The notes under the pieces: generated by a model | The model's input: the letters and a program-made list of their open reading frames with translations, nothing else | Database searches by the model: none | What the model was told of the DNA's origin: nothing | Part shown: positions 21,875-34,019 of the stretch, one piece after another | Numbering within the stretch: the stretch's first letter is position 1 | Layout: every line of letters begins with the position of its first letter | Source of the DNA: Thermogemmatispora onikobensis | GTDB taxonomy: Bacteria; Chloroflexota; Ktedonobacteria; Ktedonobacterales; Ktedonobacteraceae | Direction: 5' to 3' | DNA: 64,000 nt | Assembly: GCF_001748285.1 (NCBI RefSeq) | Contig: NZ_BDGT01000004.1 | Location: 1-64,000 of the forward strand | Position numbers and translations under genes: made by a program

Positions 21875-24070
21875 TCACCCTCCAATTCCGCTACTCACCG
21901 ACAGTGGAAATTGGGTTAGTCCTTCCACTGTCTGCAGCAGATGCAAATTTATCTCTTTCGATATAGAGGTCTCTAGATGCAGCGGACCATAATTTGGCAT
22001 ATAAAAGACAGTGCGGTAGGACCAGATACGTAGCAGTAGGCTGCTGGGAATCGGTTCCATATCAGCCAGGCTGAAGGTCACGAGGAGCCTCTCCCCCGCC
22101 TGTAAGCGGTTAAAAGTACAGGTCGTTGCGAGGCTTTGAGACGACGAGGCCCCAGCAGTGGCCACGAAGCGATAGGCATAGGTCGTATTGAGGACAGGCT
22201 GTGCCTCTTGCATGACTCGCCAGGGTGAGACAAGCCAGGTGGTAGTCTGAGAGCGCTCGGTCAGAGTGAGGGGCACAGCCTGCGATGAGAGTGCCTCTAG
22301 TGCGCCAAGCCTCCAAGGAGCAGCCTGGACAGAAGTGGCTCCTTGCGTCTCAGGTTCGATCACATAGAGAGAGAAGGGTAGGCCCCCTGGGCGCGGTAAT
22401 CTGCTTACCAGCGTGGCATGCGTAAAACGCTCCAATAGAGCCGTAACCCAGGAATCGTAAGGCCCCACGAGCATGACCGTACGCTCCGTGGGCAGGAGCA
22501 GACAGTGGGCATCAAAGAGAGAGACCGGCGTCTGCATCTGGCGGCTGAGGAAGAAGAGAGCCGTGCGGGTGGCGTCATCTACCGTGATATAGGCCCGCGA
22601 GAGATGCTCGCGCTGGGCGAGCTGATCAGTAGCAGCCAGAGCCTGCTGGAGCGAGGCCAGATCATTATGGTACGGATAGGGCTGGAACGCGCGATCATCA
22701 AAGTGCCCTTCCAGAGCATCGAGGACACTGACAGCCGAGGCCAGACTTTGAGCAACCACTAGCAGCCCCACCAGAAGATAGCCGGCCAGACGCAGACGCT
22801 GCAGCCAGCCCTCGCGCTGATACAGCCACTGGCAGCCCCGTGCCACCACGATGCCAATCAAGAGAAATGGCCCCGGCATCAAGAGCAGCAAATACTGAGT
22901 GTGTAGTTCTCCTCCATAGCGCAAGAAGACCAGAAGAGGGAAAAGTTGCCAGAGAAGCAAAATCAGCGCTCCACAACGCTGGCCATCCGAGCGCAAGCTC
23001 TCCCAAGCTTGACGCAGCCGTGGCCACCAGCGGCCAGGCTCCGCCGCTCCCTGCGACTCCGCCTGCTCGGCAGCCGGGCCAGCCTGTCGGCGCACAAGCA
23101 CGACCAGCAGCCACAGGGCGGCCAGGATCAGCAGGGCAGGCATCGCCAGCTTGAGCCAAGAGAAAAGGCGGTGGAGTGGCAAGAGGATTGCATCGCTACG
23201 ATGAGGAAGCTGATCATATGGAATGATGAAAAGGCGATAGATACGCAGAGCTTGAAGAGAGAGGCCGCCGGCCTGATGATTAGAGAAACTAAGAGTAGAG
23301 CGTAGATCATGCAGGCCAGAGACGAGCAGCCAGAGCAACGATGGAGTAAAAACAAGCAGCAGGGCCAGGAGAGCGAAAAGGGCATCGCGCCAACGCACAG
23401 TCTGGGGAGCGAGCACCAGGCAGAGCAGCAGCGGAGCCGCCAGCAAAAGATTGACCTCATGGGCCTGGTAGAGGAGGGCCAACCAGAGCACAGCCCACGC
23501 GAACCACCCCTGCCGCCGTGCTACCACGCCGCGGAAGAGCGCCAGCAGAAAGAGCACAACAAAAGGAGCGGCTATATTGGGCTGCCAGATAAAACGAGCA
23601 TACTTCACTGGCAATACGGCAGAAGCGTAGAGAAAGGAGCCAGTTACAGCTGCCAGGCGGCCATAGTAGCGGTACAAGAAGAAATAGGTTAACAGGACAG
23701 CCAGGACATTAAGCAGGGCCACAAGCACAGCGGCCCAGAGCGGGTTAGCGCTCAAGGCCGCAGGCAGCATGAACAAATAGACCACGCCGGGCGGATGCTG
23801 GGCCCCGATCGAGCCAGTATTGCTAGTGACCGGGAGCAGGCCCTGATGGACAGCATCGTAGGCCATCCGAAAGAGCGTGGCCTGATCGTCATCAAACTCG
23901 GTCCGATTGAGACCGTAGAGCCGCAAGGCCGATGCGAGGAGCAGCAGGCCCGGGACTTCCGGCTTCAACAGCCACGACCACGACTCCCAGAGGCGCCGCC
24001 GCTCAGAGCCTCCCTGGTGCTGTGAAACCATCCTTCCCTGATGATGGGCTGGTAAGGGGGCCAAGCGCAT
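21875..24070 (-). CDS. GT39/ArnT-like polytopic membrane glycosyltransferase
   Basis: 731 residues. The N-terminal first loop RLYGLNRTEFDDDQA holds the acidic Asp pair typical of the GT-C dolichyl-phosphate/undecaprenyl-phosphate mannosyl- or arabinosyltransferase superfamily. About 11-12 membrane helices follow to residue 500, then a soluble outer domain of about 230 residues. It would transfer a sugar from a lipid carrier on the outer face. The ATG at 24070 follows AGGAGGACACTTG and overlaps the end of thrC by 68 bp, so it is expressed with thrBC. The link to threonine synthesis is not obvious. Confidence 0.75.
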   Translation of the reverse strand: MRLAPLPAHHQGRMVSQHQGGSERRRLWESWSWLLKPEVPGLLLLASALRLYGLNRTEFDDDQATLFRMAYDAVHQGLLPVTSNTGSIGAQHPPGVVYLFMLPAALSANPLWAAVLVALLNVLAVLLTYFFLYRYYGRLAAVTGSFLYASAVLPVKYARFIWQPNIAAPFVVLFLLALFRGVVARRQGWFAWAVLWLALLYQAHEVNLLLAAPLLLCLVLAPQTVRWRDALFALLALLLVFTPSLLWLLVSGLHDLRSTLSFSNHQAGGLSLQALRIYRLFIIPYDQLPHRSDAILLPLHRLFSWLKLAMPALLILAALWLLVVLVRRQAGPAAEQAESQGAAEPGRWWPRLRQAWESLRSDGQRCGALILLLWQLFPLLVFLRYGGELHTQYLLLLMPGPFLLIGIVVARGCQWLYQREGWLQRLRLAGYLLVGLLVVAQSLASAVSVLDALEGHFDDRAFQPYPYHNDLASLQQALAATDQLAQREHLSRAYITVDDATRTALFFLSRQMQTPVSLFDAHCLLLPTERTVMLVGPYDSWVTALLERFTHATLVSRLPRPGGLPFSLYVIEPETQGATSVQAAPWRLGALEALSSQAVPLTLTERSQTTTWLVSPWRVMQEAQPVLNTTYAYRFVATAGASSSQSLATTCTFNRLQAGERLLVTFSLADMEPIPSSLLLRIWSYRTVFYMPNYGPLHLETSISKEINLHLLQTVEGLTQFPLSVSSGIGG

Positions 24071-25478
24071 CAAGTGTCCTCCTGACACTGGCGAGATCAG
24101 GGTCAATAATGACCGTCTCGGCGCGCGGGACACCGGTCTGATGATCTTTGAGCAAATTGCCGGTGAGGATAGCAACCACGCGCTCATTTGGCTTGATTAT
24201 ACCAGCCCTGACAAGCTTGCGAATGCCGGCCAGAGTTGCCGCAGAGGCAGGCTCACAGCCAATACCCGCGCGGTCAATAACGGCCTTCGCTTCTAGGATT
24301 TCTGGGTCACTGACCTCCTCAACGAGGCCCGCACACTCCTCGATCACCAGGCGAGCACGGGCGTAACTGACTGGATTTCCGATCTTAATTGCGCTCGCCA
24401 CCGTCTGAGCCCGGACCGCATGTCGACGGGCGAAGCTCTCGCGGTAGCTCAGGTAGAAGGGGTTCGCACCGGCAGCCTGGATAGCGGCCAGACGCGGCAG
24501 GCGGCTGATCAGACCCAGATCGCGCGCCTGACGGAAGGCCTTGCCCAGAGCCGAGGTATTCCCCAGATTGCCGGCGGGCAGAACCAGCCAGTCGGGGGCC
24601 TGCCAGTCGAGTTGCTGCAGCAATTCAAAGGCAATCGCCTTCTGGCCTTCGATGCGGAAAGGGTTGAGCGAATTGAGTAGATAGATGCCCAGCTCATCGC
24701 AGACCTGCTCAACGAGCTGCATGGCGGCATCGAAGTCGCCATTAATCTGCACCATGTGCGCCCCATAGGCCAGCGTCTGCGATAGCTTGCCGCCTGCAAC
24801 CTGACCAGCGGGCAGAAAGACCAGCGCCTGCAGGCCCGCCAGCGCGGCATAGGAGGCCAGCGAAGCCGAGGTATTGCCAGTTGAAGCGCAGGCAACGGCT
24901 CGCGCCCCCATCAGGCGCGCCATCGTCACACCCACCACCATTCCGCGGTCTTTGAAACTCCCTGTAGGATTCTCTCCCTCATGCTTGAGGTAGAGCTGGG
25001 CCAGGCCAGCATAGTCTCCGATGCGCCGCAGGCCAGGGCAGGCCTGGGTCTCCTGCTGCTGATCACTGCCCACTGCGTACAACCTGGTATTGCCCTCCGC
25101 TCGCGAGAGAACGGCCTCTTCAGGGACTGGCAGAATCAGCTCGCGATAGCGCCAGACACCACTGCGCCGCGAAACAGCAGCGCCTGGCGCACCTGGCACG
25201 AGTGCAGCCCGCTCCGCGAAGAGCCGCCGCCAGGCGGCAGCCTCATCATGCTCCTGCGGAGAGGTCCCGGCCTGAAAGACGAGCGACGTTGGCAAGTGGA
25301 GAGGGATCTCGACGTCGAGCACCTCTCCACAATCGCAGCGATAGCGCGCCGCCCGCCCCGGCTCCAGCACGGGATAGAGCGCCTGGCAGGCCACACAGCG
25401 CAGGCGCACCTCCTCCAGCGCCTGGCGGACAGAGAAGGTGAGCTGGATCTCCTCCTGACGATCAACGCTAGCGTCCAA
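24003..25478 (-). CDS. thrC: Threonine synthase
   Basis: PLP enzyme converting O-phosphohomoserine to threonine; 491 residues. The N-terminal zinc-ribbon-like region has CVACQALYP and CDCGEVLD. The PLP lysine is in NPTGSFKDRGM, and the phosphate loop is ACASTGNTSASLASYA. It is about 80-100 residues longer than short bacterial ThrC because of the ribbon and a Gln/Ala-rich insertion near residue 85-125. The start is TTG at 25478, chosen because AAAGGAGGGGCCGC lies directly upstream. It overlaps the thrB stop by 11 bp. Confidence 0.95.
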   Translation of the reverse strand: MDASVDRQEEIQLTFSVRQALEEVRLRCVACQALYPVLEPGRAARYRCDCGEVLDVEIPLHLPTSLVFQAGTSPQEHDEAAAWRRLFAERAALVPGAPGAAVSRRSGVWRYRELILPVPEEAVLSRAEGNTRLYAVGSDQQQETQACPGLRRIGDYAGLAQLYLKHEGENPTGSFKDRGMVVGVTMARLMGARAVACASTGNTSASLASYAALAGLQALVFLPAGQVAGGKLSQTLAYGAHMVQINGDFDAAMQLVEQVCDELGIYLLNSLNPFRIEGQKAIAFELLQQLDWQAPDWLVLPAGNLGNTSALGKAFRQARDLGLISRLPRLAAIQAAGANPFYLSYRESFARRHAVRAQTVASAIKIGNPVSYARARLVIEECAGLVEEVSDPEILEAKAVIDRAGIGCEPASAATLAGIRKLVRAGIIKPNERVVAILTGNLLKDHQTGVPRAETVIIDPDLASVRRTLDALGPLTSPSSGKDGFTAPGRL

Positions 25479-26508
25479 GCGGCCCCTCCTTTACCGGTCG
25501 GGCAGGCGACCAGCAGAATTGATCTTCATAGTAACGAGCGCGCGGACGGCGCACTCGCTGATGGCGAGGGTTGATCACCCGCGCCCCATGCTTATCGGCC
25601 CGCAGGATCATACCGGTTCCTTCCACGCCGCGGGCACGCGCAGCCTCCTGCATCGCGCGCAGAATCTCCTGGAAGCGCGAACTTGCAAGAGCAATTAAAG
25701 AAGAACCGCCGCCAGAAAGACAGGCACCGTGGGCCCCGGCAGCCACCGCAGCCTGAATAATATCGGGCATGGCAGGAAAGAGCGCTTGCCGATAGGGCTG
25801 GTGCAGGCGATCCTGCATTGCCTCGCCGATCAACTCATAGCGCCCCGCCTGCAGAGCCGAGAGGAGCAGCGCCACACGCCCAGTATTGAAGGTCACATCA
25901 TCCTTGGGATAGCTGGGGGGAAGCAGCCTGCGCCCAGCCAGCGTATCCATTGAGAACGAGGGAGTAAAGATGACCGCCTTCAGGGCATCCGGGAAGGGAG
26001 TCCTGACCGCATGAATCTTGCCGTCCTTGACCGTGGCCGCCACCAGCCCGCCCAGGAGGGCCGGGGCCACATTGTCAGGATGCCTTCCCTGTTCGCTGGC
26101 CACCGCCAACTCCAACACCTCCTGCTCAGAGAGCGTCAGACCCCGCAGACGCAGAAATTCGCTGGCCGCCACCACACCACCCACGGCAGCAGTGGCACTG
26201 CTACCCAGTCCAGCCCCTGGCGGAATGTGAATCAGCATACGAATGCGTACCGCCGGCGGCTCTATTCCTTTAGCAGCAAAGACCGAGGAAAAAGCGCGGA
26301 AGAAGAGATTTTCAGGACCTGTGGGAAGACCTGCCCCCAGACTCCCTTCGATCTGGATGACAGGACGCTGCGGATCATTACCACTCGCTACAACCTCAAA
26401 GCGGTTGTAAAGCTTTAAAGCCAGACCTAGGCTATCGAAACCCGGCCCCAGGTTAGCCGAGGTGGCCGGTACGAGCACAGTGAAAGCGACAGGAAATACC
26501 GGTGCCAT
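25468..26508 (-). CDS. thrB: Homoserine kinase
   Basis: GHMP kinase that phosphorylates homoserine before ThrC; 346 residues from the ATG at 26508. PATSANLGPGFDSLGLAL is the N-terminal substrate motif. HIPPGAGLGSSATAAVGGVVA is the GHMP ATP loop, and GACLSGGGSSLIAL the C-terminal motif. The ribosome site AGGAGGCCCGTGGCG precedes the start. The C-terminus is extended by about 40 basic residues relative to short ThrB (HQRVRRPRARYYEDQF). Heads the thrB-thrC-GT39 run. Confidence 0.95.
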   Translation of the reverse strand: MAPVFPVAFTVLVPATSANLGPGFDSLGLALKLYNRFEVVASGNDPQRPVIQIEGSLGAGLPTGPENLFFRAFSSVFAAKGIEPPAVRIRMLIHIPPGAGLGSSATAAVGGVVAASEFLRLRGLTLSEQEVLELAVASEQGRHPDNVAPALLGGLVAATVKDGKIHAVRTPFPDALKAVIFTPSFSMDTLAGRRLLPPSYPKDDVTFNTGRVALLLSALQAGRYELIGEAMQDRLHQPYRQALFPAMPDIIQAAVAAGAHGACLSGGGSSLIALASSRFQEILRAMQEAARARGVEGTGMILRADKHGARVINPRHQRVRRPRARYYEDQFCWSPARPVKEGPLGR

Positions 26509-26601
26509 CGCCACGGGCCTCCTGTCTTTCAGCTGCAAGACCTTCCATTGCTCTCAGCATCTCCTTTCTGTCCGCTTTGTCAGCGGAGAAGAGTGGCTTT
26601 T

Positions 26602-26773: not shown

Positions 26774-27751
26774 CTATTCGTAGACGGGTGTCAGCCAATG
26801 ACGATACTTGTCGTTCTCGCCACGACAGGCCGCCAGATAGAGGGCTTGTAACTTCATCGTAAAAGGACCAGGGCGCCCGCTACCGATCGGGCGGTGGTCG
26901 ACACTGATCACCGGAGAAACCTGGACGCCAGTCCCGCAGAGGAACATTTCTTCACTGGCATACAGCTCCGTGCGATCAATACGCCGCTCCTCGACAGTCA
27001 TGCCAAATTCATCACGCACCAGCTGGATCAGCGCATTGCGTGTGATGCCTTCAAGAATGTCTTCAGAGGGGGCCGGAGTGATCAGCTTGCCGTTGCGCAG
27101 GATGAAGAGATTACAGGAACTGCCCTCGGAGACATAGCCATCGTGCGTCAGCATGATCGCCTCATCAAAGCCACTGGCCAGAGCGTCTTCGGTCGCCAGA
27201 GCACTGTTGACGTAGCCCCCTGTCACCTTGGCCCGCACCGGCATGGCATTGCTGTTGGCCCGCCGCCAGCTTGACGTGCAGACCCGCAAGCCCGACTCGA
27301 TGTCGACATAGTTGCCCATGCCAAAGGTATAAATCGCAAACTCATCCTTGAGACCAGTCAGGCGCGGCTTGACCGTCAACGAAGCCTTATAGGCAATCGG
27401 TCGAATATAGACATCTTGCTGATAGTTATGCTTCCGCAGTAGCTCAACTGTGATACGCTCCAAGTCCTCCATCGAATAGGGGAGATTGAAGCGCATTACA
27501 TTCCATGAATGCATCATCCGCTCGTAGTGTTCGCGCATTTTCAGCACATAGAGCTGCTCTTGAGCGGCATTCCAGTAGGCGCGGATTCCCTCGAAGCAGG
27601 CAGTACCGTACTGCAGGGCATGGGTAGCAATGCTAATCTTGGCCTCAGCGATGGGCACAATGCGGCCCTCGAAGAAGGCGTAGCCCTCAAGCGGGTCCTG
27701 AATCGAGACCTTCTGTGGTGTGGCTTCCTGAGAACTCTGTGTCTGCGTCAC
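26774..27751 (-). CDS. ilvE: Branched-chain amino acid aminotransferase
   Basis: PLP class IV aminotransferase for the last step of Leu, Ile and Val synthesis; 325 residues. HALQYGTACFEGIRAYW is the family start. The PLP lysine is in VRAKVTGGYVNSALA, and DEAIMLTHDGYVSEGSSCNLF follows. The GTG at 27751 is preferred because GAAGGAGTGAGGTC precedes it and the protein then has normal length. The open frame upstream to 27982 encodes unrelated sequence over a terminator. It follows leuA on the same strand after a 259-bp gap. Confidence 0.94.
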   Translation of the reverse strand: MTQTQSSQEATPQKVSIQDPLEGYAFFEGRIVPIAEAKISIATHALQYGTACFEGIRAYWNAAQEQLYVLKMREHYERMMHSWNVMRFNLPYSMEDLERITVELLRKHNYQQDVYIRPIAYKASLTVKPRLTGLKDEFAIYTFGMGNYVDIESGLRVCTSSWRRANSNAMPVRAKVTGGYVNSALATEDALASGFDEAIMLTHDGYVSEGSSCNLFILRNGKLITPAPSEDILEGITRNALIQLVRDEFGMTVEERRIDRTELYASEEMFLCGTGVQVSPVISVDHRPIGSGRPGPFTMKLQALYLAACRGENDKYRHWLTPVYE

Positions 27752-27829
27752 GACCTCACTCCTTCGATCGATACAGGCAAAGCGCAGGGGCCATAGAACC
27801 GTCCCACGCGTAAATAAGAGCATGGTAGA

Positions 27830-27888
27830 GAAAAAAGGAAGAAGGCGCAAGGGCGTGCCGCTGAAACCTCTGGCGGACACACCCTTGC
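27830..27888 (-). terminator. Terminator between leuA and ilvE
   Basis: On the minus strand GCAAGGG pairs with CCCTTGC across a roughly 30-nt GC-rich loop with further internal pairing (CCGCCAGAGG...GCGG). It is followed by GCCTTCTTCCTTTTTTC. The long pyrimidine/T-run fits factor-independent termination of the ilvBNC-leuA message, which would leave ilvE with its own promoter or dependent on readthrough. Confidence 0.55.
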
Positions 27889-28010
27889 GGGCCAGAAGCT
27901 CTCTCTTGACCGTTGCTGGTCCTGTCTGGTCTGCCAGTTGGCCAGTCGGGGCGGGAGTGGAGAGAGGTGCTCTTCCCGACAAGCCAGGGCAGGGCAGGGT
28001 AGCAGCGACC

Positions 28011-29192
28011 CTAGATCGCCGAAGGTGTCTCCAGGCTGCTTTCGACGATATAGATCAGATCGTCGTCGGTCACATACTTCTTCTCATCGGCGAGAGCGAT
28101 GAAGCGTGCATAGGCCTTCTTGAGCTGCTCAGCATTCAAGCGATAGCCGAGCTGGCGCAGGCGGGCATCGAGGCCGTGGCGTCCGGAATGTTTGCCGAGC
28201 ACCAGGCGCGTATCGTCCCAGCCGACCGACTGTGGCGTCATGATCTCGTAGGTCAAGCGATTCTTCAGCACGCCATCCTGATGGATGCCGGCCTCATGAG
28301 CGAAGGCATTCTGGCCCACAATGGCCTTATTGGGCTGCACAGGGATACCTGTCAGGCGGCTGACCAGCTGGCTGGCCGCCACGAACTCGCGGGCATTGAT
28401 GCGCGTATCGGCCTGGAAGACATCCGGGCGCGTACGCAGGGCCATGACCACCTCCTCCATCGCCGTATTGCCAGCGCGCTCACCGATGCCATTGATGGTC
28501 ACCTCCACCTGTCGAGCGCCGCCGCGGATCGCCGCCAGAGTGTTGGCCGTGGCCAGGCCGAGGTCATCATGGCAGTGGGCGCTGAGCACCACATTCTCCA
28601 TGCCCGGCACATGCTCGCGCAGGTAGCGGAAGAGCATCTCATACTCATGCGGCATCACGTAGCCGACCGTATCGGGCACATTGATCGTCGTGGCGCCCGC
28701 CTTGATGGCCAGCTCGAAGACGCGGCAGAGATAGTCCCAGTCGCTGCGGGTGGCATCTTCCGCCGAGAACTCGACCCGCGGGCAGAGATTGCGTGCATAG
28801 GCCACCATGGTCTTGACCTGCTCCAGGGCCTCCTCGGGCGTGATCCTCAGCTTATACTTCAGGTGGATATCAGAGGTCGCCAGAAAGACATGGATCACTG
28901 GCTGGTCCGCCTCGCGGACGGCTTCCCAGGCCGCGTCGATATCCTGGGTATTGGCACGCGCCAGGCCGGCGACGGCCACATCATGGCCACGCACACGCTG
29001 CGCAATGGCCCTCACCGCCGCCAGGTCTCCGGGTGAAGCAGCCGGAAAGCCAGCTTCGATGATATCGACGTTCAGGCGCACGAGCTGCTCAGCAACTTGC
29101 AGCTTCTCCTCGGTTGTCATGGTGGCGCCAGGCGACTGTTCACCGTCACGCAGAGTTGTGTCAAAGACGCGAATTACCGCAGGATCTTCCAT
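28011..29192 (-). CDS. leuA: 2-isopropylmalate synthase, catalytic-only form
   Basis: First committed enzyme of leucine synthesis (2-ketoisovalerate plus acetyl-CoA). [24 protein letters not shown] and [18 protein letters not shown] are the catalytic-barrel signatures. [17 protein letters not shown] carries the metal-histidine region. At 393 residues it ends just after the linker subdomain. The C-terminal allosteric LeuA-dimer domain of about 120-150 residues that binds leucine is absent. The stop is followed by a terminator, so this is a genuine short form. Citramalate or homocitrate synthase are alternatives, but the context favours leuA. The ATG at 29192 has AAGGAGG upstream. Confidence 0.88.
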
Positions 29193-29342: not shown

Positions 29343-30374
29343 TCACTTCTTGGTCGGCCCCGCAATTTCAGGCCGCTTGTCTACAGGCTTGAGCCAGGGC
29401 ATCATCGCGCGCAGCTCGCTACCGACCTGCTCGATCTGGTGCTGCGCGTTGGCGCGGCGCATCGCCTGGAAAGCCGGGCGCCCAGCCTGATTCTCCAGAA
29501 TCCAGCGTGTTGCAAAGGTGCCGTCCTGGATCTCGCGCAAGATCTTACGCATCTCGTTCCGTACTTGCTCATTAATGATGCGCGGGCCAGAGACATAGTC
29601 ACCATACTCGGCAGTATCGCTGATCGAGTAGCGCATATAGCTCATGCCGCCCTGATACATCAGGTCAACGATCAGCTTCATCTCGTGGAGGCATTCAAAA
29701 TAGGCCACCTCGGGCTGATAGCCAGCCTCCACCAGTGTCTCGAAACCAGCGCGGATCAGGGCCGTCACGCCGCCACAGAGTACAGCCTGTTCGCCAAAGA
29801 GATCGGTCTCGGTCTCCTCCGCGAAGGTCGTGCGCAGGACGCCGGCACGGGTGCATCCAACGGCGCGGGCATAAGCCAGCGTGAGGGCTTCCGCCTGCCC
29901 GGTCGCATCCTGATGGACAGCCCACAGGGCTGGCACGCCCACGCCTTCGGTGAAGAGCCGGCGCATCATATGGCCGGGGCTTTTGGGGGCTACCATCGCG
30001 ACGTCAATATCGGGAGGCGGCACGATCTGCGAATAATGGACGCTGAAGCCGTGGGCGACCATCAGCATCTTGCCCGGGGCCAGGCCAGGACGAATATCGC
30101 GCTCAAATACTTCGCGATGGTACTGATCAGGGATCAGCAGCATGATGATGTCGGACTGCGCCGCCGCCTCGGCGGTCGTCATGACTGGCAGTCCATCAGC
30201 CTCGGCTTTCTCGCGGCTCTTGCTGCCTGCTGGCAAGCCAATTACGACATTGCAGCCGTTGTCGCGCATGTTGAGGGCATGAGCGTGGCCCTGGCTGCCA
30301 TAGCCAATGACCGCCACACGCTTGCCCTGAATCAGCTCAAGATTGGCATCTGCATCGTAGTAGATATTCGCCAT
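29343..30374 (-). CDS. ilvC: Ketol-acid reductoisomerase, class I
   Basis: Converts acetolactate to dihydroxyisovalerate with NAD(P)H and magnesium; 343 residues. The Rossmann motif is [17 protein letters not shown] and the cofactor loop [15 protein letters not shown]. The metal site includes [12 protein letters not shown] and the late [13 protein letters not shown]. The short-form length matches class I. The ATG at 30374 follows AGGAGGAG, 15 bp after ilvN, so both lie on one message. Confidence 0.97.
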
Positions 30375-30389
30375 TGACTGCTTCTCCTC

Positions 30390-30929
30390 CTATTCATCGC
30401 GCGCAATCGCCAGACAACCGCTGCGCGCCAGTTCGCGAATGCCATAAGGCTGGAGTCGTTCCAGGAGTTGCTCCACCTGCTCACCTTTGCCGGTAACCTG
30501 CAGCGTGAGCGTTTCGGGCGCAAGGTCGACGGCCTGCGCCCCAAAGTGCTGGCCCAGTTCGATGATCTCGCTGCGGTTGGCAGCGGTGCAGTTGACCTTG
30601 ACCAGCGCTAGCTCACGTTCAATCGCCCGCCCAGCCGGGAAGAGGAGCACCTGACGAACGTCGACAATCTTGCGCAACTGCTCGCAGAGGTGCTCGACGC
30701 CGACTTCGGCATCGTCAACGACCACAGTGACCCGTGCCACTCCGGCCTCTTCGCTCGGGCCGACGACGAGGGTGCGCATGTTGGCCCGTCGGCGACGCAG
30801 CACATTGACCACCCGATCAACCGCACCCTGGCGATCGTCGACCAGCAGCGCCAGGGTGTAGAGGCGCGCGCTTCCCTGGGGGGCATCCGCCTGCCCGGCA
30901 CGCGCTGAGGCGATAGCCTGCTCTGTCAT
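30390..30929 (-). CDS. ilvN: Acetolactate synthase small (regulatory) subunit
   Basis: ACT-domain partner of IlvB that confers activation and valine feedback; about 179 residues from the ATG at 30929. The ACT start YTLALLVDDRQGAVDRVVNVL is clear, and the C-terminal half (ALVKVNCTAANRSEII... ) matches the small-subunit C domain. An in-frame GTG at 30977 inside the ilvB end lacks a ribosome site. A Gln/Ala-rich 20-residue tail precedes the ACT domain. Confidence 0.93.
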   Translation of the reverse strand: MTEQAIASARAGQADAPQGSARLYTLALLVDDRQGAVDRVVNVLRRRRANMRTLVVGPSEEAGVARVTVVVDDAEVGVEHLCEQLRKIVDVRQVLLFPAGRAIERELALVKVNCTAANRSEIIELGQHFGAQAVDLAPETLTLQVTGKGEQVEQLLERLQPYGIRELARSGCLAIARDE

Positions 30930-30969
30930 GTCTGATCCCGTCCTTCCGTCTGTCCTCACAACCTGCCCG

Positions 30970-32736
30970 TTATTCACGCTCGATAATCATATCGGTGATG
31001 GCGGCTCCAGGCGGCACCATTGGGTAGACGTTAGCCTCGGCCTCGATGGCAAAGTCGATGATGACCGTGCCAGGGGTCTGCATGGCCTGCTGCACGGCGG
31101 CCTGGACATCTTCGCGCCGCTCTACTCGTATACCCGTCAGGCCATAGGCTTCCGCCAGCTTGACGTAATCCGGGCTGCTAATGGGAGTTTCAGAGTAGTT
31201 ACGCTGGTGGAAAAACTCTTGCCACTGGCGCACCATACCGAGGTAGCCATTGTTCATGATGGCCACTTTGACCTCAACGCCCTCATCGCGGATGGTGGCC
31301 AGCTCCTGAATATTCATCTGGATGCCACCATCTCCGGCCACCACCCAGACCGTGGCCTCGGGCCGCCCCATCTTGACGCCCATTGCCGCCGGCAGAGCGA
31401 AGCCCATCGTGCCAAGGCCGCCAGAGGTGATATGACTGTTGGGATGGGTCCACTTGTAGAAACGGGCTGTCCACATCTGGTGCTGGCCCACATCGCTGAC
31501 CACCGTGGCCTCGCCATCAGTGACCTCGTAGATGGCATCGAGGATATCGGTCGGCGTGGGATAGGACGCAGGACGGCGCAGACGGCGAGCTCGCTCCTGC
31601 TCCTCGGCCTCCCACTGGCGCAGCTCGCTCAGCCATTCCTGGTGATCGCCTGGTTCCACGGCCTCCACCAGGGCCGCCAGGGCCGCCTTCGCATCGGCCA
31701 GAATGGGCACGGCAGCCGGCTTGACCTTGTTCAGCTCCGACGGATCGATGTCGATATGGATGATCTGAGCCTGGGGAGCAAATTCGCTCACCTTGCCGGT
31801 CACGCGATCGTCAAAGCGCAAACCGATACCGATAATCAGGTCGGTGACCCCAATCGCGCGGTTCACAAAGGCCGGCCCATGCATGCCCGGCATGCCCAGG
31901 AAAAGCGGATGCTCAACTGGGAAGGCACTCAGGCCGAGGAGGGTGGTGATCACCGGAATGTTGGCCTTCTCGGCCAGGGCACGCAGCTCGGCATAGGCAT
32001 TTGAAAGGATGACGCCATGACCAGACATAATGACTGGGCGGCGCGCCTGAGCGATGAGGCGAGCAGCCTGCTGAATGGCCTCGGGCGCTGGTTGAGGCAC
32101 GCGCGTCGCGCGGTACAGTTCGATCGAGCGCACGGAAGCAGCAGGGCGATAGACGGTCTTGGCGAACTGGACATCCTTGGGGACATCGACCAGCACAGGA
32201 CCGGGGCGCCCGCTGCGGGCAAGCTGGAACGCCTCATGCACCACATCCGCCAGCTCCTCGACATGCCTGACCAGGAAGTTATGCTTGGTGATAGGCAGGG
32301 TCAGGCCAAGGACATCGGTCTCCTGGAAAGCATCGCGTCCGATGAAGGGACGACCCACCTGGCCCGTGATGGCGACCACCGGCGTTGAGTCCATGTAGGC
32401 GGTGGCAAGGCCGGTCACCAGATTGGTGGCCCCCGGACCACTGGTGGCCACACAGACGCCAACCTTGCCAGTGGCACGCGCGTAGCCATCGGCGGCATGG
32501 GCCGCGGCCTGCTCATGGCGCACCAGCACATGATGCAGTCGCGGGTAGGCGGGGAGCGCGTCATAGAAAGGCATGATCGCGCCACCCGGATAGCCATAGA
32601 GCAGCTCTACGCCCTCGCGCACCAGGGCCTCGCAAAGAATGTGACTACCTGCCAGCTCGCGCGCTTCATCAGCGGCGTGCGCACTGGCCCTACGGGCATC
32701 TCCTGACTCCTGAGTAACCGTCGCAGTTGTTGTCAT
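30970..32736 (-). CDS. ilvB: Acetolactate synthase large (catalytic) subunit
   Basis: Thiamine-diphosphate enzyme joining two pyruvates, or pyruvate with 2-ketobutyrate; 588 residues. ELLYGYPGGAIMPFYDAL carries the conserved ThDP-activating glutamate region. RHEQAAAHAADGYARATG follows, and the C-terminal GDGGIQMNIQELATI is the ThDP/magnesium motif. A charged N-terminal tail of about 28 residues precedes the core. The ATG at 32736 has AAGGAGGAAGGTAGT. Its upstream region carries the leader ORF and terminator, so expression is probably set by attenuation. Confidence 0.97.
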   Translation of the reverse strand: MTTTATVTQESGDARRASAHAADEARELAGSHILCEALVREGVELLYGYPGGAIMPFYDALPAYPRLHHVLVRHEQAAAHAADGYARATGKVGVCVATSGPGATNLVTGLATAYMDSTPVVAITGQVGRPFIGRDAFQETDVLGLTLPITKHNFLVRHVEELADVVHEAFQLARSGRPGPVLVDVPKDVQFAKTVYRPAASVRSIELYRATRVPQPAPEAIQQAARLIAQARRPVIMSGHGVILSNAYAELRALAEKANIPVITTLLGLSAFPVEHPLFLGMPGMHGPAFVNRAIGVTDLIIGIGLRFDDRVTGKVSEFAPQAQIIHIDIDPSELNKVKPAAVPILADAKAALAALVEAVEPGDHQEWLSELRQWEAEEQERARRLRRPASYPTPTDILDAIYEVTDGEATVVSDVGQHQMWTARFYKWTHPNSHITSGGLGTMGFALPAAMGVKMGRPEATVWVVAGDGGIQMNIQELATIRDEGVEVKVAIMNNGYLGMVRQWQEFFHQRNYSETPISSPDYVKLAEAYGLTGIRVERREDVQAAVQQAMQTPGTVIIDFAIEAEANVYPMVPPGAAITDMIIERE

Positions 32737-32862
32737 ACTACCTTCCTCCTTAACCTAGGGGCGTCCCTGCATAGCTCGCTAGACTCGATTCGATTTGTGT
32801 CTGATAGACGCTTGAGACCAGATAATGTAAGTGAGACTGCTGCGAAACGCCCTGCAAGCAAT

Positions 32863-32899
32863 AAAAAACGAGGAACCGCCCTGCCGGGAGGCCCTCGTT
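32863..32899 (-). terminator. Attenuator-type terminator before ilvB
   Basis: On the minus strand AACGAGG (32893-32899) pairs with CCTCGTT (32867-32873), with further GC pairing in the loop (GGCCTCCCGG/GGGCGG). It runs directly into TTTTTT. It lies 40 nt after the stop of the leader ORF and 127 bp before the ilvB start. A strong terminator between a leader peptide and the structural genes is the core of transcription attenuation. Confidence 0.8.
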
Positions 32900-32938
32900 A
32901 GGTTACCTGCGCTGGATCGGGTTGCGTCGTTGCTCCCG

Positions 32939-33325
32939 CTACTCTCCTCTCGGCGTGCCAGGCGTAAGGCCCGTGGTAAGCGTTACGAGGCTAAGGCTAA
33001 GGCCCGTAAGGCTTACCACCCCGCTAAGGGTAAGGCTAAGGCCAATAAGAAGGAGCACAAGCCCTACAAGGAGGAGCGTGGAGGCAATCGCAATAGCTAG
33101 AGGGGCTACAAATAAAGAAATCGGCGTCATGACGCCGATTTTCAGAATAAGGAGGAGACCAGCCATCATAGCAGCGGACATAGCAACGGCAGTCACCGTA
33201 GCCGTAGCTTGCCCCATACTGCCACGCATCGTGGCAGCAGCAGCAGAGCGACAGCCCATCGCAGGCTGCTCAGCCCAGGACATCGCTTCGGCCCACTGGT
33301 TGCCGGTACGACACGCTGCTGACAT
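32939..33325 (-). CDS. ilv operon leader ORF rich in Leu/Ile/Val/Thr codons
   Basis: The last 63 codons (from ATG at 33130) contain 18 Leu, 6 Val, 4 Ile and 9 Thr. The leucines use CTT twelve times and CTC four times and never CTG, although CTG dominates in neighbouring genes. It ends 40 nt before the terminator ahead of ilvB. This matches leader peptides whose ribosome stalling reports shortage of branched-chain amino acids and threonine. The ATG at 33130 has no ribosome site and lies inside a palindrome. An in-frame ATG at 33325 has AGAAGGAG and would give a 128-residue product with a Met/Ala-rich first half, far longer than known leaders. Which start is used is uncertain. Confidence 0.8.
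   Translation of the reverse strand: MSAACRTGNQWAEAMSWAEQPAMGCRSAAAATMRGSMGQATATVTAVAMSAAMMAGLLLILKIGVMTPISLFVAPLAIAIASTLLLVGLVLLLIGLSLTLSGVVSLTGLSLSLVTLTTGLTPGTPRGE
33121..33138. repeat. Perfect palindrome inside the ilv leader ORF
   Basis: TCGGCGTCATGACGCCGA is an exact 18-bp palindrome centred on the internal ATG at 33130. On the minus strand it is followed by TTTCTTTATTTG, so in RNA it would be a GC-rich hairpin plus U-rich tail, resembling a second, upstream terminator within the leader. A ribosome coming from the ATG at 33325 would melt it. Confidence 0.7.
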
Positions 33326-34019
33326 GCTCACTGGCTCCTTCTCTACAGAGATCTCGCGACCTTCGTTCGTGTTTGCTGTTCCGTACTTCTTCCGCTCCGC
33401 GCGATTGCTCAGCTTAGAGCAGGGAAAGATACCCTCTGCGCCAAACAACCTTCTCAACAGCTAAAGAGATTAGAGTTTGCTTGCAAGAGACGTTCAGCGG
33501 TAAGAGGCTAATCGTTGCCTCAAACCTGCTGCGCTGGCTTCTCTCCGTCGACAGCTGGCCTGGCTCATACCTGATTGTCTCACCAGCTTGCAACCTAGAG
33601 AGATCATAAGAGCATGCGCGGCATCTCGGAGGTAATTGACTGCGGGCGTCGTTGCCAGGTCGTCGTGCGAACCCCGTACCTGCTCTTCTTCCCCTCTCCA
33701 CCTACCCCCTACTGGAGCCACTTCTTCGTAGCGGGTCCTGCTGTCTGAGAGGATACACCACTCGTTGGAGTTTGTCAACCCCTGAATCGCTTTCTACTCC
33801 TCTTGGCGAGAGCAGTGAAAGCGATCAGGGCAGGCTGGAGGCTGCTCGGGTCTCTCGTTATTCCGTGATAAGCTCTGCCAAGAGAGGAGTCAACAGGGTG
33901 AAAGGCAGCTCCCTCTCCGCTTGTCCTGCGCAGCAGAAGAGGGAGCCAGGTCTCAGCATGAAGCAGACGGAGCGAACGAAACCGAGAGATGAGCTGGTAC
34001 TGAGATCATTCAGTGCCAG
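33326..34019. other. Intergenic region upstream of the ilv leader
   Basis: About 700 bp between the ilv leader and thpR, both on the minus strand. It should contain the ilv promoter. AT-rich minus-strand stretches near 33440-33500 hold imperfect hexamers (TTGAGA and TTGCAA with TAnnnT-like partners) but none has good spacing. No ORF here has both a ribosome site and a plausible composition. Confidence 0.4.

Follow-up and report, generated by a model that had tools for sequence, protein, structure and literature searches.

Leader peptides of the enteric attenuators (ilvGMEDA, ilvBN, leu and thr) are short, roughly 15–35 codons, and at the pyrBI operon of Escherichia coli the signal is the pausing of RNA polymerase at low UTP. 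Within the pyrBI leader (pyrL), a closely coupled ribosome prevents the terminator, and stalling upstream of that terminator raises termination (PMC5021804). The ilvD attenuator of Staphylococcus aureus has a 26 aa Leu/Ile-rich leader peptide, one terminator located 52 nt after the stop codon and an antiterminator that sequesters the poly-U (PMC5794164). In Corynebacterium, the uORF of the ilvB-II motif encodes a peptide of 15–17 aa (PMC10272879) and, as in actinobacterial ilvB leaders (PMC1262725), a uORF rich in codons for branched-chain amino acids (BCAA) is followed by a terminator before ilvB. We found no published attenuator for Chloroflexi/Chloroflexota or Ktedonobacter in the open-access literature.

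The window, a 64,000-nucleotide stretch of Thermogemmatispora DNA, carries an ilvB operon preceded by a long leader ORF (Table 1). From sequence comparison and predicted RNA folding, we propose with a probability of about 0.85 that this region is a ribosome-mediated attenuator of ilvB-ilvN-ilvC-leuA-ilvE-thrB-thrC, with two terminators (T1 and T2) in series under one leader ORF. It resembles the enteric attenuators in combining a leader ORF of regulatory codons and a mutually exclusive antiterminator and terminator with an operon for the same amino acids, and differs from them in the antiterminator junction that overlaps the stop codon, in the extra terminator inside the ORF and in having ilv, leu and thr genes under one leader. 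A first-pass annotation had described an exceptionally long version of the enteric design, apparently from Chloroflexota. Both the length (leaders of 90–130 codons, against the enteric range above) and the placement (relatives include Thermosporothrix hazakensis) are borne out. Its attenuation reading is likewise supported, although the regulation itself is what we infer; the simple enteric design is not, given the junction at the stop, T1 inside the ORF and a Met/Ala-rich half. New beyond that annotation are the 90–130-codon leaders, T1 within the ORF, the Met/Ala-rich half before T1, and thrB-thrC in the operon.

The BCAA-rich uORF and following terminator of the ilvB-II and actinobacterial leaders recur here, but those systems have 15–17 aa and one terminator, and their sequence and structure are different. 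The S. aureus ilvD leader is alike in its Leu/Ile-rich peptide and its terminator after the stop, and unlike in its 26 aa, its poly-U-sequestering antiterminator and its single terminator (PMC5794164). Our proposed model for T1 is that of pyrL, a closely coupled ribosome preventing the terminator; at T1, however, we propose that the signal is amino-acid status or translation, with a second attenuator downstream. Control of ilv genes by a terminator and an antiterminator is also found in T-box leaders of BCAA genes, whereas the T-box covariance model has no match in the Thermogemmatispora leader up to E 5; some other Chloroflexota have a T-box in tandem with a leader ORF.

Table 1. Positions in the window of the leader elements and operon genes; P1–P4 are predicted helices of the antiterminator junction
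Feature	Position	Strand	Remark
Promoter TTGACA-17-TATCCT	33750..33778	-	conserved in all same-genus genomes
Shine-Dalgarno AAGGAG of leader ORF	33335..33340	-	from sequence; kept in all same-genus genomes
Leader ORF, 128 codons, ATG to TAG	32939..33325	-	N half Met/Ala-rich, C half Leu/Ile/Val/Thr-rich
Leader N-terminal half	33143..33325	-	family-wide Met 14%, Ala 21%
T1, terminator-like hairpin and T-rich tail (AAATCGGCGTCATGACGCCGATTT CTTTATTTGT), inside ORF	33108..33141	-	pairing, compensatory changes
63-codon Leu/Ile/Val/Thr-dense half	32942..33130	-	37/63 codons
P0, long hairpin in coding region	32975..33017	-	13–14 bp in most other genera
P1 5' strand (GGAG), next to stop codon	32944..32947	-	
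P2 hairpin	32918..32938	-	
P3 (UCC..GGUA)	32904..32916	-	
P4 (CCU AACG AGG)	32893..32902	-	
CTCCC, partner of P1 (antiterminator) or inside T2	32886..32890	-	
T2, intrinsic terminator before ilvB, TTTTTT end	32863..32899	-	in all members
ilvB, acetolactate synthase large subunit	30970..32736	-	ATG at 32736
ilvN	30390..30977	-	
ilvC	29343..30374	-	
leuA (2-isopropylmalate synthase)	28011..29192	-	
ilvE	26774..27982	-	
thrB, homoserine kinase	25468..26538	-	
thrC, threonine synthase	24003..25478	-	

The leader ORF is dense in the codons of the operon's own amino acids

The leader ORF most plausibly starts at the ATG at 33325, with AAGGAG (33340–33335) placed 9 nt 5' of it, and ends at a TAG (32941–32939). 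Its last 63 codons (33130–32942) include 37 for Leu, Ile, Val or Thr, exactly the number first reported, and 28 for Leu, Ile or Val (LIV). When all stop-free 63-codon windows of the 64 kb were scanned in six frames (n = 33,280; mean 16.2, sd 4.8), a count of 37 or more was reached solely by overlapping windows of the leader. The 18 leucine codons of this half are CTT (12), CTC (4), TTA (1) and CTA (1), so that the absence of CTG noted in the first-pass annotation stands, while its restriction of leucine to CTT and CTC does not. In ilvB of the same operon, by contrast, 28 of 43 leucine codons are CTG (Fisher p 1e-6). Across genera, the LIV half contains 29% Leu, 14% Val and 7% Ile, LIV thus making up about 50% of residues; CTT provides 55% of its Leu codons and GTA 51% of its Val codons, against 12% each in the ilvB genes, which rather than the whole genome served as the codon-usage reference. 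Such otherwise rare codons may be the choice favoured in an amino-acid sensor. The leader is therefore dense, in count as in codon bias, in the amino acids that the ilv, leu and thr genes of the operon serve.

Same-genus genomes are 86–93% identical over the region and differ by 3- and 6-nt in-frame indels, with few changes after 33118. Over the whole leader ORF, changes at codon positions 1, 2 and 3 number 75, 29 and 80. In the N half, 29 of 109 codon changes are synonymous (expected 0.25), with no excess but with position 2 conserved, whereas after T1 the leader frame has 11 synonymous changes among 18 (expected 0.30). In other genera the ORF has 93–123 codons and the same end point, mostly with RGD or QGD before the stop; among all members, its length is 93–128 codons. 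The in-frame indels, the conserved stop and the synonymous excess after T1 argue for coding selection on the leader. A plus-strand Lys/Arg-rich ORF (32831–33100) could conversely be the real gene and the LIV ORF its antisense shadow, as the two share one triplet register and the plus-strand ORF is basic in composition, with a hairpin past its stop. However, its frame has only 2 of 18 changes synonymous after T1 (expected 0.22), antisense stops break the LIV half in most other genera, and the plus-strand ORF has no family match; on the substitution pattern and the antisense stops we rejected it as very improbable.

The leader and its RNA element are conserved upstream of ilvB

A covariance model (R1) was built on the element from stop to terminator. 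The leader and this element lie upstream of ilvB in 28 of 29 genomes of the Thermosporothrix family (Ktedonobacteria); the only one with no R1 match (G015) has no close ilvB. R1 also matches a genome of a second family (G030) with E 1e-10. The matched loci examined are directly upstream of ilvB, and the window's own genome has a single copy. R1 matches outside the class at E 0.01–1 were not counted as evidence; weak ones directly upstream of ilvB (L066, L046) served only as a lead for inspecting those places. Comparison of the region upstream of ilvB, the check named in the first-pass annotation, found the ORF, the stop codon, the density of regulatory codons, the terminator and the competing antiterminator pairing kept in 13 genera. 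A further set of genomes of the order (G029 and G031–G046, families f2 and f4; many are incomplete) shows neither the leader element nor a close orthologue of ilvB, the best E being about 1e-19 to 1e-86 and one genome having no match; this hints that BCAA synthesis has been lost or replaced.

The promoter is matched in most other genera by TTGACA-N-TATnCT located 130–210 nt before the leader ATG. Since a promoter is conserved upstream of the leader, transcription of the ilvB operon runs through the leader first. The region ahead of the leader ORF spans about 420 nt in the window's genus and roughly 100–180 nt elsewhere, and a small element after the promoter, CCGGCAAAGUUGCUG, is common to many genera (window 33742–33341 and family loci). 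In the Thermosporothrix-family members whose downstream contig is long enough, thrB-thrC follow ilvB-ilvN-(ilvC)-(leuA). As listed, the ilvE ORF carries about 100 residues ahead of the aminotransferase domain, and its start codon is putative. A 770-aa ORF (21875–24187, minus strand) overlaps thrC and has no NCBIfam match; it is kept after thrC in several genomes of the family, with several copies in L158.

A predicted antiterminator junction contains the leader stop codon

T2 consists of the stem AACGAGG (from 32899) ... CCTCGTT, followed by TTTTTT to 32863, and such an intrinsic terminator is located between the leader ORF and the first gene in all members. The strong terminator first reported 40 nt past the leader stop, before ilvB, was confirmed in both gap and stem. 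Using RNAalifold and per-sequence folding, we found that the leader stop codon lies within an 85-nt RNA element predicted to be foldable as a four-way-junction antiterminator. Its predicted outer stem, P1, is GGGAG-CUCCC, with the 5' strand in the last ORF codons at the stop codon. As the 3' strand of P1 is part of the 5' arm of T2, antiterminator and T2 would be mutually exclusive, and by structure prediction the switch is within reach of the ribosome's position at the stop. For most of the sequences, folding predicts a junction closed by P1, at −9.5 to −26 kcal/mol; P1 is paired in 97% of cells, and the whole structure in 95% versus 32–57% when slid. Within the Thermosporothrix family P1–P3 vary too little to give strong covariation, one pair being changed on both sides; the most divergent member, G030, has longer P1, P2 and P4 helices whose strands have changed together. 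Another strong hairpin (P0) is found in most genera 37–75 nt before the leader stop. Pairing of the P3 loop AAAGAA with the U-tract was considered and dropped: many relatives have this complementarity, but the window's genus lacks it.

Computed nearest-neighbour energies favour T2 over the antiterminator, so the latter must act kinetically or via tertiary structure. The unpaired junction nucleotides AUCC, GGUA and GCAAcGA are highly conserved across genera, which gives reason to expect tertiary stabilisation. The same conservation would suit an aptamer that senses a ligand such as ppGpp or an amino acid, with the LIV ORF secondary or additive; indeed, ppGpp riboswitches are reported ahead of some ilvB genes (PMC10272879). 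We regard an aptamer as quite unlikely, for the leader stop codon is inside the element in every member, other Chloroflexota retain the ORF and the complementarity without the junction, and Rfam, with such ilvB-associated and ppGpp/ykkC-type RNAs as it contains, gave no match to the leader up to E 5 except malK-I (E 2.7, other strand), taken as chance.

A terminator-like hairpin separates the two halves of the leader

Between the two halves of the leader, about 185 nt into the ORF, we identified a second terminator-like hairpin, T1, absent from the first-pass annotation. No other minus-strand hairpin in the window combines 9 bp or more with a T-rich tail; like the terminator of pyrL, T1 sits inside the leader ORF. 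Every Thermosporothrix-family member examined has AACCGACGU-loop-ACGUCGGUU or variants of it, followed by a T-rich tail. T1 is 99.5% paired versus 24–51% when slid, with compensatory changes (one pair is U-A in the window's genus and C-G in others; another is G-C, A-U or G-U), and both its paired cells and its covariation score lie above all 500 shuffles (0/500). One genome (G016) has a second ilvB (L168:1700–2600) with its own leader, including an LIV half, and no ilvN, ilvC, leuA or thrBC within 5 kb downstream. The leader of this paralogue follows the same plan with a wholly different T1 stem, GACACCUGC..GCAGGUGUC, and the tail TTTCTTTAT. No conserved complement that might compete with T1 was seen by eye in the aligned Met-rich half, and such a partner was rejected.

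T1 could instead be a pause or mRNA-stability hairpin with no regulatory role of its own, T2 alone attenuating. The interrupted tail in the window (CTTTATTTGT) and the absence of T1 from the second family (G030) would fit this, and we hold it to be possible if on the unlikely side, against near-perfect pairing, compensatory change and a T-rich tail that is present in every family member examined and in the paralogue with its different stem. T1 as a terminator inside the ORF also bears on whether the product of the ORF is simply a small, functional membrane protein, with the LIV residues as a transmembrane segment and T2 as no more than a separator of transcripts. The C half is hydrophobic and the RGD/QGD end of the protein is conserved, but a protein function would leave unaccounted the rare-codon bias at Leu and Val, the variable length (93–128 codons), the covarying terminator within the ORF and a stop codon inside the antiterminator stem; the ORF has no family match, and we consider this highly unlikely.

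The half of the leader that precedes T1 is of a different make-up. ATG accounts for 14.4% of in-frame codons in the N half and for 1.2% of out-of-frame triplets; enrichment in frame alone shows that selection acts on the peptide or its codon reading rather than on a trinucleotide. Met exceeds its frequency in ilvB (p 9e-33, indicative only, the sequences being related). This enrichment is not universal, L029 having two Met and the G016 paralogue its start alone. G030, whose leader has neither T1 nor a Met-rich half, carries thrB-thrC upstream on the other strand, a single contrast suggestive of T1 and the Met-rich half tracking thrB-thrC in the operon.

Shorter leaders in other Chloroflexota

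Many other Chloroflexota, including relatives of Thermomicrobium and Sphaerobacter, have an LIV-rich ORF and then a terminator before ilvB. These leaders are shorter and follow the same logic, with the antiterminator strand at or just before the leader stop, and they keep the ORF and the complementarity but not the four-way junction. Several end in GGGAGGC-stop, the exact complement of GCCTCCC in the terminator arm, and in 8 of 16 such leaders an 8-nt stretch at the stop or shortly ahead of it is complementary to the T2 arm. Summed over the 16 loci, the longest complementarity is 102, compared with a mean of 72 and a maximum of 86 in 1000 shuffles. Short LIV leaders with GGGAGGC at the stop, complementary to the terminator arm, argue for ribosome-mediated attenuation as the mechanism. 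On these predicted pairings, the attenuator principle is spread through the phylum, some of the examined lineages lacking it, and has been elaborated in the Thermosporothrix family. Two genomes of another Chloroflexota family have a T-box (L194:968–1185 and L196:920–1129; Rfam, E 5e-33 and 2e-22), downstream of which the same strand carries an LIV-rich leader ORF and a terminator before ilvB, apparently tRNA-sensing and ribosome-sensing attenuators in tandem.

Discussion

In the proposed mechanism, when Leu-, Ile-, Val- (and Thr-) tRNAs are charged, the ribosome would reach the stop codon and cover GGGAG, the antiterminator would be blocked, and T2 would end transcription. When charged tRNAs are scarce, the ribosome would stall upstream, P1 together with P2–P4 would hold CUCCC, and RNA polymerase would enter ilvB. 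Because an untranslated leader leaves P1 free too, the T2 switch by itself would be on in the absence of translation. The T1 hairpin would be kept from folding by a ribosome that follows RNA polymerase closely; if the leader is not translated, or if ribosomes stall in its Met/Ala-rich half, T1 would fold and transcription would end. T1 would thereby supply a "no translation, no expression" default, provided that coupled ribosomes suppress terminators and stalled ones do not. In E. coli, terminators late in a coding region are suppressed by ribosomes, and those in its first 100 bp can work despite translation (PMC4824070).

We tentatively raise a further possibility, itself doubtful, that the leader is an AND-NOT gate in which T1 would be passed only if the Met/Ala-rich half is read without delay and T2 only if Leu, Ile, Val or Thr is short. 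If true, passage of T1 would signal that Met, Ala and general translation are sufficient, so that homoserine and pyruvate can be spared, and the competing aspartate- and pyruvate-family branches would be weighed within one RNA. The G016 paralogue, which lacks thrBC, bears on this in that it keeps T1 and is not Met-rich.

The principle is known, but a long two-stop leader conserved in a whole Chloroflexota family appears to be undescribed. The stretches ahead of the two terminators differ in amino-acid composition and, to our knowledge, the Ktedonobacterial version, two terminators with one ORF of 90–130 codons, is the most elaborate leader-peptide attenuator. The locus extends peptide-leader attenuation to Chloroflexota, where many lineages share one simple rule, an antiterminator strand placed at the leader stop codon or shortly ahead of it. 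It also makes testable the question of whether one leader ORF can integrate two amino-acid signals of opposite sign. As the leader's codons and predicted folds suggest, the cell very probably gauges its amino-acid supply by how fast ribosomes move along this leader.
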